From a bacterium (GTDB lineage Bacteria; Patescibacteriota; Microgenomatia; UBA1406; GWC2-37-13): a DNA stretch of 38,755 nucleotides. Location of the stretch: assembly GCA_030647255.1 (NCBI GenBank), contig JAUSJK010000065.1, positions 1 through 38,755 on the forward strand, read 5' to 3'. The notes below the pieces were generated by a model that made no database searches, had not been told where the DNA came from, and saw only the letters and a program-made list of their open reading frames with translations. Positions 24,836 to 28,868 of this stretch are shown piece by piece. Every line of letters begins with the position of its first letter. Position 1 is the stretch's first letter. The position numbers and the translations under genes are program-made.

Positions 24836-26380
24836 TCAACTTTTATTTCTAATACCAATTGCTTGAGAGATATGGGTGAAGCCGTCTTTTTTCAAAAGAT
24901 CGATTAATCCTATGTTGATCTGGGCGATGAGTTGGGGGCCTTGAAAGATCATACCCGTGATAAGCTGTACCAACGATGCTCCCAAGGTTATTTTTGTATA
25001 CGCGTCCTTACCGCTGAATATACCACCACAGCCGATGATAGTGAAACGTTTTTTATAATGTCTATACGCGAGTTTAATCAATTCGTTAGATCTCGTAAAT
25101 GTCGGTTTACCGCTGAAATAGCCCACACGAAACTGTCGCACCTCTTTTTGGTCTAAGAAGGGATTTTTCCTATCTTTCTGCAGGTTGCCGAAAATAACAC
25201 CCGCAGGTGAATGATCGGCTATTACTTTTAACATGCCCAGTGTTTCTCTATCAGATTTTTCAATGGGCATTTTGATAAAGACGGGTTTCTTAAGGTGAAG
25301 CTTGTCTATCTCAGTTAATAATTCGCTTACATTTTTAGGAGGATAAAAAGTAATATCACCATAGAGATTGGGACAACTGATATTCAGTTCATAATATGAG
25401 TGGGCAACTTTTGATTTTTCAAATGCGGTAAAGGCCTGGATTATATCTTCAATACTTTGCTTTTGAGTTTTTAATGCGACAGTATTTGTTCTCCCGATAC
25501 TTATTCCTACAGGTATCTTAAAATCGAGATTTGAGAGACTGCTGACCATTGTTGCCGCTCCGAGATTTTTAAACCCCTTATTGACCATGAGAGACTGTGA
25601 TTTAGGCAGTCTGCCAAGCATAGGCGACGGATTACCTTTGTAAGGCATATTTGTAATCGTTCCTATACTTTGAAAACCAAATCCGACTGAAGGAAGTATC
25701 TGAGTCAGTCTTCCTTCATAATCAAATCCCGCGGCCAAGCCAACGGGATTCGTGAATATAATACCTTTAATCGTTTGTTCTAATGATTCATTTTTTTCAG
25801 TGCACACCTTTGATAATAGGTTTTTAACTACATTATTTTTTCCCATCATTTCACCCAATGCGACAGTGTGATTGTGCACAGTTTCGGGATCAATTTTGAA
25901 AAGTATTTTTTTGATAACGTACCGATATATCAGGGCCATTTTGAGTAAGGCGAGCATTTTTCTTTCTCTGGAAAAAACGATCTGGACGATGATAAAAAGA
26001 GACGTGCTTATCAAAGCTGAGACCATACAGTAGAGACAGATAGCCTTAATGATGAAAATCTGCAAAAATACTAAATACAATGAGGTTACAAATCCTATGG
26101 TTGTTAGAATGATGAGTGTATATATTCCCTTTCGATTATTCGTCGCAAGAATAAAAAGAGAACTGATGAGTAGGAAGCAGTAATAAAAAATTCCGAAGAG
26201 AGCTAGAGGTATGCCAAATACTGTGGAGTAACTACTCTGTAACACTTTCCCACAATCTGAAAAGAAAATACTCGTTGAGCAGGGGAGAATAATCCGGCTG
26301 TAATGTTCGTACGTCAAGTAGATAGAATCAATAAGACCAACCGAAGCCAAAGCCAATACTGCCAAAAGCCCTTTTTTCAT
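24836..26380 (-). CDS. VKOR domain fused to dihydroorotate dehydrogenase
   Basis: One uninterrupted 514-aa frame. Residues 1-135 are a VKOR-type four-helix membrane enzyme with Cys34 and Cys43 in the loop, SSYSTVFGIPLALFG (49-63) and the active-site pair CLYC (115-118). Residues from about 145 form a dihydroorotate dehydrogenase: IDPETVHNHT (163-172) resembles class 2 enzymes, then NPVGLAAGFD (211-220), GFGFQSIGTIT and the FMN-binding GCGGIFSG. The catalytic base position is NISCPN with Cys336, as in class 1, whereas class 2 has Ser. Both parents of such a fusion can pass electrons to quinone. The fusion implies disulfide formation and pyrimidine synthesis sharing a membrane site. A TATAAT lies 15 nt upstream of the ATG. 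Confidence 0.85.
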   Translation of the reverse strand: MKKGLLAVLALASVGLIDSIYLTYEHYSRIILPCSTSIFFSDCGKVLQSSYSTVFGIPLALFGIFYYCFLLISSLFILATNNRKGIYTLIILTTIGFVTSLYLVFLQIFIIKAICLYCMVSALISTSLFIIVQIVFSRERKMLALLKMALIYRYVIKKILFKIDPETVHNHTVALGEMMGKNNVVKNLLSKVCTEKNESLEQTIKGIIFTNPVGLAAGFDYEGRLTQILPSVGFGFQSIGTITNMPYKGNPSPMLGRLPKSQSLMVNKGFKNLGAATMVSSLSNLDFKIPVGISIGRTNTVALKTQKQSIEDIIQAFTAFEKSKVAHSYYELNISCPNLYGDITFYPPKNVSELLTEIDKLHLKKPVFIKMPIEKSDRETLGMLKVIADHSPAGVIFGNLQKDRKNPFLDQKEVRQFRVGYFSGKPTFTRSNELIKLAYRHYKKRFTIIGCGGIFSGKDAYTKITLGASLVQLITGMIFQGPQLIAQINIGLIDLLKKDGFTHISQAIGIRNKS

Positions 26381-26427: not shown

Positions 26428-27141
26428 TCAATATGGTCGGACAATATAGCCTAATGCTCCGTGGATATCCTTAGATTGTCTTCCATACATTTGAGAAATT
26501 GGTGTAAATTGAACCGCCATGATATCTCCTCGTGTATAATCCTTCCATGACATATTAGGCAAAAGTGCTTGTTGATCTTTTCTACCTAAAACTACAAACG
26601 GCTCTCCTTCTGTAGGGCCTGCTACGCTAGTTCGATCTTCTACATGCAATAGGTACACATACTTGTCTAAAGCTTCCCGTATTTTCTTCGCATCCTCAAA
26701 TTGTTTACCAGAAGATTGTACTCGTGCTCTTTTTACTTCTTGACCATCGACAGTGCGTTCAAAAGCGGGCGTAGTACTTCCTTCTCTCTGAATAGAATGA
26801 TAAATAAGGTCAAAGCTTACAGTACTATCTGGTAATCCATGAAAAGTGACATATGGATTAAGTTCTTGAGAGCGATTTATATCAATTAAATCAACTATAT
26901 CATCTCTTCTATCTCCCACTTTAAACGCCATTTGATCTGCATGAGTTCGAACCCTTGGATTAAATTTTACTCCTATTGCTTGTGAAAGAGCGGCATATGC
27001 GTAAAGAGTTTCAGGGTATAGTTCTGCGATTAAAGATTTCTCATACTCACTTCGTGCTGGATTCCTATCTGGTAACATGAAACCCTTGTCCGTAGTTAAA
27101 AAAATCGAATTAACAGTTCTTAATTCGGCATTACTACCCAT
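26428..27141 (-). CDS. Hypothetical protein
   Basis: A 237-aa protein I cannot assign. It has no membrane helix, signal peptide or cysteine. It contains mixed alpha/beta-looking stretches such as YPETLYAYAALSQAIGVKF, DDIVDLIDINRSQELNP and ALDKYVYLLHVEDRTS, and ends in GALGYIVRPY. The ATG is preceded by a distant TATAAT (about 36 nt upstream). It lies just before the tRNA and accessory region; the 203 nt between it and the tRNA are AT-rich without a gene. Confidence 0.65.
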   Translation of the reverse strand: MGSNAELRTVNSIFLTTDKGFMLPDRNPARSEYEKSLIAELYPETLYAYAALSQAIGVKFNPRVRTHADQMAFKVGDRRDDIVDLIDINRSQELNPYVTFHGLPDSTVSFDLIYHSIQREGSTTPAFERTVDGQEVKRARVQSSGKQFEDAKKIREALDKYVYLLHVEDRTSVAGPTEGEPFVVLGRKDQQALLPNMSWKDYTRGDIMAVQFTPISQMYGRQSKDIHGALGYIVRPY

Positions 27142-27744: not shown

Positions 27745-28868
27745 ACCGTTCACAAAACGGTTGGTAGGTTTTAGAAAAGGGTTGGTAGGACAAGCTTCTC
27801 ATTTTTTGTTTTATCGATCGGTCTTTCACCATTTAAATGTCTAAATTTTCCTTCACATCCTGAGAGTCTTGTGAATCTTCTTTTAAGAATGTAGGCATTC
27901 AGCCAGAGGGTAGCGTGTTTAAAACTTTCAAACCCTTTTAATGAGGCCAGTCTATCTTGCAAATGAGAATTAAAACATTCAATGAGATTGGTTGTAGTGG
28001 GAGCTCCTTTAATACCACGGTATGCGAGAAGTTCTTTCTTGTATTTTTCGATGTTGGCAAGTATTGATAGTGTAACTGGATCATGAGCATAATCTTCAAA
28101 GAGTATTCCCATCCATTTGTTAAATACTTCATCTGACAATTTGTGAGAAAGGATACTGTCAACTTCGGAAGAAAAATGAAGATATGTTTTATCAGTCCGG
28201 ACTTTCAATTCGCGTCTGACATTCTCTTTAAAATGATTCGTACATGTTTGTATTTTAACCGTTGGAAAGGCATTGCGAGCTGCCATTTTAATGTTGACGT
28301 TATCATCGCAGACTAAAAGTTGAGGGTGGTGAGAAATGATTCTGAAGAAACTAAAATATCTTGCCCAGGATTGATAGTTTTCACTCGGTGCAAGAGTAAA
28401 TACGGGAATATCATGTGTAAAGTAATCAATTCCCCAGAGCAGGGGAATTTTACCTGCATATCCTTTTACATGAATGTATTTTCCATCAAACAAAAATATG
28501 TGTGAAAAACGAGCGCAGTACTTGTGAGTAAACTCGTTATTTGCCGGTACTTTTTCTAACTCTTCATGACATACTTCCCAGGCTTGAGTTTTACTAATAC
28601 CGTAGGTCGCACCCAAGACTTGAAAGGACATTCCATTAAGGTGATCTCTCAGTAATTGCTTCTTATTAAGGGTAGTATTCATTGAAAAATGTGTAGTACA
28701 CGCTTTACAAAACATTCTCAATACTTTCTTTCGATATCCGTAGCGAATGACTTTATCGGTAGTTAAGTAGGCAGGGCACTTATATTTTTTCATATGCCCC
28801 ATCTTAAACCACTTTAGCAATCTTTATCAGTCTACATTCCTATTCTTACCAACCGCCTGGCGAACGGT
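27745..28868 (-). mobile_element. Insertion sequence with terminal inverted repeats
   Basis: The ends at 27745-27768 and 28845-28868 are inverted repeats matching at 19 of 24 positions. Each begins ACCGTTC and contains CGGTTGGTA. Each end also has a small internal ACCGTT/AACGGT-like palindrome. The element is 1124 nt with one transposase gene. I see no obvious target duplication. It begins 9 nt after repeat B. Confidence 0.7.
27771..28802 (-). CDS. DDE transposase, MULE/IS256-like
   Basis: The 343-aa protein fills the insertion sequence. An N-terminal zinc-ribbon-like part has CP...CKAC. The catalytic domain shows FDGKYIHVKG (first Asp), LLVCDDNVNIKMA (second Asp), CTNHFKENVRREL and TTNLIECFNSHLQDRL (Glu), an arrangement typical of MULE and IS256-type enzymes. 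The ATG at 28802 is preferred; the frame is open to a TTG at 28820. The gene appears intact, so the element may still be active. A finer family name needs a database comparison. Confidence 0.75.
   Translation of the reverse strand: MGHMKKYKCPAYLTTDKVIRYGYRKKVLRMFCKACTTHFSMNTTLNKKQLLRDHLNGMSFQVLGATYGISKTQAWEVCHEELEKVPANNEFTHKYCARFSHIFLFDGKYIHVKGYAGKIPLLWGIDYFTHDIPVFTLAPSENYQSWARYFSFFRIISHHPQLLVCDDNVNIKMAARNAFPTVKIQTCTNHFKENVRRELKVRTDKTYLHFSSEVDSILSHKLSDEVFNKWMGILFEDYAHDPVTLSILANIEKYKKELLAYRGIKGAPTTTNLIECFNSHLQDRLASLKGFESFKHATLWLNAYILKRRFTRLSGCEGKFRHLNGERPIDKTKNEKLVLPTLF

Follow-up and report, generated by a model that had tools for sequence, protein, structure and literature searches.

A new type of VKOR fusion in CPR bacteria: VKOR joined to a remodelled class 2-like DHODH flavoprotein

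Bacterial VKORs of the Mycobacterium and Synechococcus type (PF07884) stand alone, whereas VKOR-DsbA (VKOR-thioredoxin) fusions, in which VKOR is joined to a redox partner, occur in cyanobacteria and Clostridium; there the partner is a thioredoxin domain acting as electron donor (PMC12453122). VKOR next to a thiol-disulfide oxidoreductase has already been reported in CPR bacteria by Meheust et al. (PMC6744442). How VKOR and DsbA are re-oxidised where quinone synthesis is missing is unexplained for Clostridia (PMC12453122). The CPR protein described here resembles the bacterial VKORs in its fold, its four cysteines, its outward active site (as predicted from hydropathy and charge) and the presence of a DsbA-like partner in the genome. 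Unlike them, it adds a C-terminal FMN flavoprotein, and its genome is without a detected quinone-type prenyltransferase or terminal oxidase. As in the VKOR-DsbA fusions, VKOR is joined to a redox partner, but this partner is of the DHODH type, is predicted to be cytoplasmic and would stand on the acceptor side.

With class 2 DHODH (PyrD) the fusion shares the whole fold, including the N-terminal tunnel helices (TM-score 0.96 to 8ofw), and three substrate asparagines. It differs in carrying Tyr, Val, Cys and Leu for Lys66, Asn111, Ser175 and Thr247, in a new Lys at Met113, and in lying away from pyr genes in the neighbourhoods read, except in one genome (G030). A Cys at the catalytic-base position is shared with class 1 DHODHs (fumarate or NAD type), whereas the sequence, the N-terminal helices and the tree position of the fusion are class 2-type. 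No description of a VKOR-DHODH fusion was found in the literature searched; among VKOR fusions the type is new, the partner being a remodelled flavoprotein of class 2-like character. Our preferred reading, held at a little short of even confidence, is that it would act as a two-headed membrane redox protein, passing VKOR electrons to a quinone, from there to the FMN domain and finally to an acceptor in the cytoplasm. The coupling, the direction of the electrons, the quinone and the acceptor are all putative.

The fusion gene and its domains

The gene lies on the minus strand of the window, by which we mean the whole stretch of 38,755 nucleotides that was analysed. Residues are numbered from the ATG as 1; the fusion alignment and the structure model begin at codon 2, hence their numbers are one lower.

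24836..26380, minus strand: VKOR-DHODH fusion gene, 514 codons, ATG start, no stop inside
25985..26362, minus strand: VKOR domain with its four transmembrane helices, about residues 7-132 (Pfam PF07884; helices from the model)
26279..26281, minus strand: Cys34, outer-loop cysteine, invariant across 15 aligned fusions
26252..26254, minus strand: Cys43, outer-loop cysteine, invariant across the same 15
26027..26038, minus strand: Cys115-Leu-Tyr-Cys118, the VKOR active-site CxxC, both Cys invariant (15 fusions)
25802..25972, minus strand: domain-joining helices, residues about 137-193 (model helices; alignment to class 2 structures)
24893..25783, minus strand: DHODH-type FMN barrel, residues about 200-496 (Pfam PF01180; NCBIfam class 2 models)

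Pfam matched the 514-residue product to VKOR (E = 5.7e-27; 94.9 bits for PF07884 against a cut-off of 27.5) and to DHO_dh (E = 3.3e-48), with both profiles covered almost end to end, and found no thioredoxin domain anywhere in the protein. The sequence-only reading had proposed a complete VKOR domain, with Cys34, Cys43 and CLYC at 115-118, in a single frame with a DHODH; positions and profiles agree with this. The AlphaFold2 model is a single confident chain (pLDDT 90.8, pTM 0.88) running from four membrane helices through tunnel-type helices (136-192 in model numbering) to the barrel. The domain-joining helices are the counterpart of those that build the quinone tunnel at the N-terminus of class 2 DHODHs, and the best structural matches (Foldseek) were likewise class 2 DHODHs, from M. 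tuberculosis (8ofw, TMt 0.96) and H. pylori (6b8s, TMt 0.93). Two NCBIfam class 2 models were also passed by the DHODH half, TIGR01036 with 236 bits (cut-off 200) and NF003652 with 277 (cut-off 267). The class 2-like character first noticed at the N-terminus thus stands, but it is not limited to the N-terminus, as the whole length matches in both the models and the structures. Alignment also places Cys336 at the catalytic-base position, as had been suggested. However, Cys here is not specifically the class 1 trait it was taken for: it marks the whole CPR/DPANN class 2-like clade and is also present in a few Bacteroidota class 2 enzymes. A class 1 identity for the DHODH half was ruled out by profile scores and by the tree.

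The VKOR cysteines are predicted to lie outside the cell and the DHODH half inside by the positive-inside rule, because of the charged residues in the N-terminal KK, in an NNRKG loop and in RERK after helix 4. The strand that carries the fusion also has, upstream of it, an ORF of 237 aa without a Pfam match (26428-27141), and about 0.6 kb past this ORF is a Mutator-family transposase-like gene (27771-28820).

A rebuilt substrate site and its relation to pyrimidine synthesis

In human DHODH, Lys100, Asn145, Tyr147, Ser215 and Asn284 are described active-site residues (PMC12197698). The fusions were compared with a reference set of 50 ordinary class 2 enzymes, defined by their Ser base, in E. 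coli PyrD numbering. The remaining aligned residues are presumed to have the roles of their E. coli PyrD counterparts.

25718..25720, minus strand: Tyr221, at the position of Lys66 (Lys in 50/50 Ser-base class 2 enzymes, Tyr in 21/21 fusions)
25577..25585, minus strand: Val266-Asn267-Lys268, at the position of Asn111-Arg112-Met113 (alignment to solved class 2 enzymes)
25367..25384, minus strand: Asn333-Ile-Ser-Cys336-Pro-Asn338, with Cys336 at the catalytic-base position, Ser175 (class 2 alignment)
25181..25186, minus strand: Asn399-Leu400, at the position of Asn246-Thr247 (class 2 alignment)

Asn111 and Thr247, like Lys66, were present in 50/50 of the reference enzymes. Besides the Lys66 to Tyr change, all 21 fusions carried Cys for Ser175 and Leu for Thr247, and Asn111 was replaced by Val (n = 20) or Ala (n = 1). 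Kept in 21/21 fusions were the substrate residues Asn172, Asn177 and Asn246 (Asn333, Asn338 and Asn399 in the fusion), the FMN residue Lys217 (Lys370) and the tunnel residues His19 and Arg102 (His169 and Arg257). The sequence-only reading took the DHODH half as a complete DHODH; that it is simply a complete orotate-forming enzyme does not sit with the replacement of four residues invariant in the 50 class 2 enzymes. The Lys lost at 66 is matched by a Lys gained at 113, so binding of orotate or another carboxylate may persist.

At the same positions the CPR/DPANN clade had Lys, Val and Leu with the Cys base (19/19 each), and the subclade that holds every VKOR fusion had Tyr, Val and Leu with Cys, Met113 being replaced by Lys in all 41 sequences. 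In the tree, ordinary class 2 enzymes, the Lys/Cys clade and the Tyr/Cys clade formed a nested series with all fusions within the last of these (SH-aLRT 97-99), and fusions arose only inside the Tyr221/Lys268 clade (SH-aLRT 97). Because all of them nest in the Tyr/Cys clade, the Lys-to-Tyr change preceded or accompanied fusion. A large CPR clade of class 2 DHODH-like proteins, labelled orotate-forming by curated models, has a consistently different substrate site, and its current annotation as orotate-forming may be wrong.

The retained residues (N333, N338, N399, the FMN lysine, tunnel His169 and Arg257) and the class 2 fold speak for a rival explanation, in which two ordinary quinone reducers were joined merely for convenience and draw on one scavenged quinone pool, with the DHODH half still making orotate. 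The new Lys268 could then stand in for Lys66, but the explanation has to accommodate the loss of K66, S175 and T247 in every fusion and of N111 to Val or Ala. Genome content can be weighed in the same way. Our sample consisted of 57 independently assembled Woesebacteria-type CPR genomes, namely the window's own genome and its relatives, of which 16 have the fusion. The rival draws support from two of these (G019 and G030), which have pyrF and the fusion with no other DHODH found, and in which the fusion could be the orotate maker; in G030 pyrF lies about 5 kb away in the fusion neighbourhood. Against this, pyrF was present in 11 of the 16 fusion genomes and 9 of these 11 had a separate DHODH homologue, while pyrF was not found in the other five, three of which (G006, G008, G015) keep the fusion without any other DHODH either. 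Quinone scavenging, on which the rival relies, has already been suggested for clostridial VKORs (PMC12453122); two quinone reducers would nevertheless depend on something to oxidise quinol, and the searches for both oxidase types found none (see below). We regard the shared pool as unlikely, and retain the preferred reading, that of a two-headed protein delivering VKOR electrons to the cytoplasm.

In the window's genome a second DHO_dh protein lies among pyrC, pyrE and pyrF, and a protein similar to it adjoins pyrC in G014. It is divergent and class 1-like, and because its scores fall below the NCBIfam cut-offs its role rests on context. The fusion as the only pyrimidine DHODH was rejected for the window's genome on account of this homologue. 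Both its presence among the pyr genes and the genomes that keep the fusion without pyrF or another DHODH count against the DHODH half as an orotate enzyme, and on these gene sets its being the pyrimidine enzyme is improbable.

Several unusual pyrimidine loci were seen in these genomes. The pyr cluster of G019 (L144:17-9794, on G019:C2) comprises a carB-like gene, pyrC, three pyrE-like genes and pyrF, without pyrD; it also includes genes for FrdA and FrdB (fumarate-reductase-like) and one resembling aspartate ammonia-lyase, and FrdAB might be a substitute or helper for dihydroorotate oxidation. Three tandem pyrE-like phosphoribosyltransferase genes lie beside or near pyrF at L145:1372-3379 and L144:7024-8991. 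In a further genome, with the fusion and no pyrF found, a class 1 DHODH gene adjoins a class 2 one, the two being divergent (L150:1884-4013, on G012:C60).

Thiol partners, quinone supply and a candidate electron outlet

The window's genome encodes a TM-anchored DsbA-like protein with a CPAC motif (G000:C70) and gave two matches to DsbD/CcdA-type proteins, and stand-alone VKORs of its relatives adjoin DsbA (L230, L231). Neither haem-copper oxidase (COX1) nor cytochrome bd was found in the 57 genomes, and the positive controls worked. No quinone-type prenyltransferase was found in the window's genome, which is 93.6% complete. The sole UbiA-family protein found in it resembles decaprenyl-phosphate phosphoribosyltransferase (195.6 bits against a model cut-off of 207), and for this reason own quinone synthesis via UbiA was rejected; such synthesis is the usual setting of a VKOR, though it does not strictly define one. 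Second UbiA proteins occur in other genomes: in G014 and G008 they hit a prenyltransferase model whose name does not refer to quinone synthesis, and those of G001 and G011 fit no class in the same comparison.

Under the preferred reading, the outward VKOR half would re-oxidise the membrane-anchored DsbA-like protein, and exported proteins would thereby gain disulfides. The C-terminal half would be an FMN protein derived from class 2 DHODH, facing the cytoplasm; its substrate site is remodelled, and it would not be the main orotate maker. VKOR electrons, which ordinarily enter a respiratory quinone pool, would here be carried by a quinone, either bound or scavenged, along the class 2 tunnel that the protein has kept. 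They would so reach FMN, which would hand them to a cytoplasmic acceptor, for which fumarate, another carboxylate and O2 are candidates. The outcome would be an electron outlet for disulfide formation without a respiratory chain. The potential of DsbA is about -0.12 V and that of orotate about -0.25 V, so orotate would be a poor acceptor and fumarate or O2 a favourable one. In its strictest form, a self-contained cross-membrane thiol oxidase in which the fusion itself holds the quinone and the repurposed DHODH flavin passes the electrons to some compound of the cytoplasm that is not orotate, the proposal is doubtful. If that form were true, bacteria without quinone synthesis or a respiratory oxidase could still form disulfides outside the cell. 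The fusion is in any case a physical candidate for the VKOR/DsbA electron outlet in CPR bacteria, and one that is testable with a single gene.

Electrons could also run the opposite way, the FMN half oxidising a cytoplasmic substrate and the quinol so formed driving the reduction of extracellular disulfides by VKOR. Class 2 DHODHs do normally give electrons to quinone, and a quinol oxidase was not found in the 57 genomes. However, known bacterial VKORs oxidise DsbA (PMC12453122; PMC11208910), the DsbD/CcdA-type proteins already provide reductive transporters, and a DsbA-like partner with CPAC is present. Moreover, even cysteine counts were favoured in exported proteins of the fusion genomes (43:20 vs 162:239, P = 6e-5). 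Such a bias is consistent with oxidative folding and is not diagnostic for the fusion, which it does not single out because two relatives that lack VKOR showed it just as strongly (29:12). We therefore consider reverse flow improbable, and the outward-to-inward transfer described above remains the reading we follow.

Association of VKOR with the DHODH clade and distribution of the fusion

In the window's family VKOR was fused in 15 genomes and stood alone in three, one of which also had the fusion. Among 380 CPR genomes, VKOR was present in 58 of 79 with the DHODH clade and in 94 of 301 without it, these counts being uncorrected for relatedness and genome size. The co-occurrence persisted when fused genomes were left out (odds ratio 5.6, P = 3e-10, again uncorrected for relatedness and genome size). 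Unfused DHODH and VKOR genes lay no more than 10 kb apart in 5 of 53 pairs, compared with about one expected (P = 0.004), three of the five coming from one family and relatedness being uncorrected. The link between the two halves that the sequence-only reading had supposed is therefore matched by a phyletic association that holds even when they are unfused; as to its form, the sequence is compatible both with a shared quinone and with direct electron exchange. Against the preferred reading, VKOR was undetected in 21 of the 79 genomes with the DHODH clade, and many genomes have the DHODH domain unfused. In the G011 lineage DHODH is present without VKOR (L019).

These data also bear on whether VKOR is a mere membrane anchor for the DHODH half. 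Support for an anchor comes from CPR family f69, where a related DHODH of the Lys type, with a Cys base, has at its N-terminus a membrane domain of the PAP2 phosphatase type that is undecaprenyl-diphosphatase-like (L195:3382-5034, L196:3371-5023, L197:1253-2905), so that such domains can evidently be acquired. Yet all four VKOR cysteines are invariant, VKOR in the window's family is nearly always this fusion, and VKOR accompanies the DHODH clade when unfused, making a simple anchor improbable by comparison with the redox role preferred here.

The 16 fusion genomes are G039, from the same order, and 15 members of the window's family, among them the genome of the window. Full-length homologues with both domains were mostly 50-60% identical within the family. 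A Woesebacteria genome (L033) and a MAG (L035) also have the fusion, which groups the window with Microgenomates-type CPR, and it was found in three further CPR families, represented by G353 (same class) and by G059 and G064 (other classes, with divergent VKOR). The expectation that the same architecture would turn up in other CPR genomes was thus borne out, and homologues were not always separate proteins. An assembly join, a frameshift or a functionless chance fusion has a negligible probability, since the identical frame and architecture recur in independently assembled genomes and in other families. In the VKOR tree, a single origin of the fusion was borderline (AU p = 0.052).

Across 14 fusion loci there was no constant operon partner, and no acceptor gene was consistently tied to the fusion in its neighbourhoods, which counts against the preferred reading. 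Four genomes have an FAD-dependent oxidoreductase gene adjoining the fusion or close to it (L145:9507-10751, by NF005560 family match; L159:8142-9446, L149:4447-5712 and L154:5094-6473, by eye). In the wider DHODH clade, a pyridoxamine-phosphate-oxidase-like flavoprotein repeatedly adjoins the gene (L033:6513-8283, L020:1022-1492, L050:3710-4999; by eye), with an SDR enzyme also present in two of these three loci (by eye). In a member of the Saccharibacteria, a Lys/Cys-type DHODH sits between cytochrome b-like and type 2 NADH dehydrogenase-like genes (L048:3602-8119, by eye).
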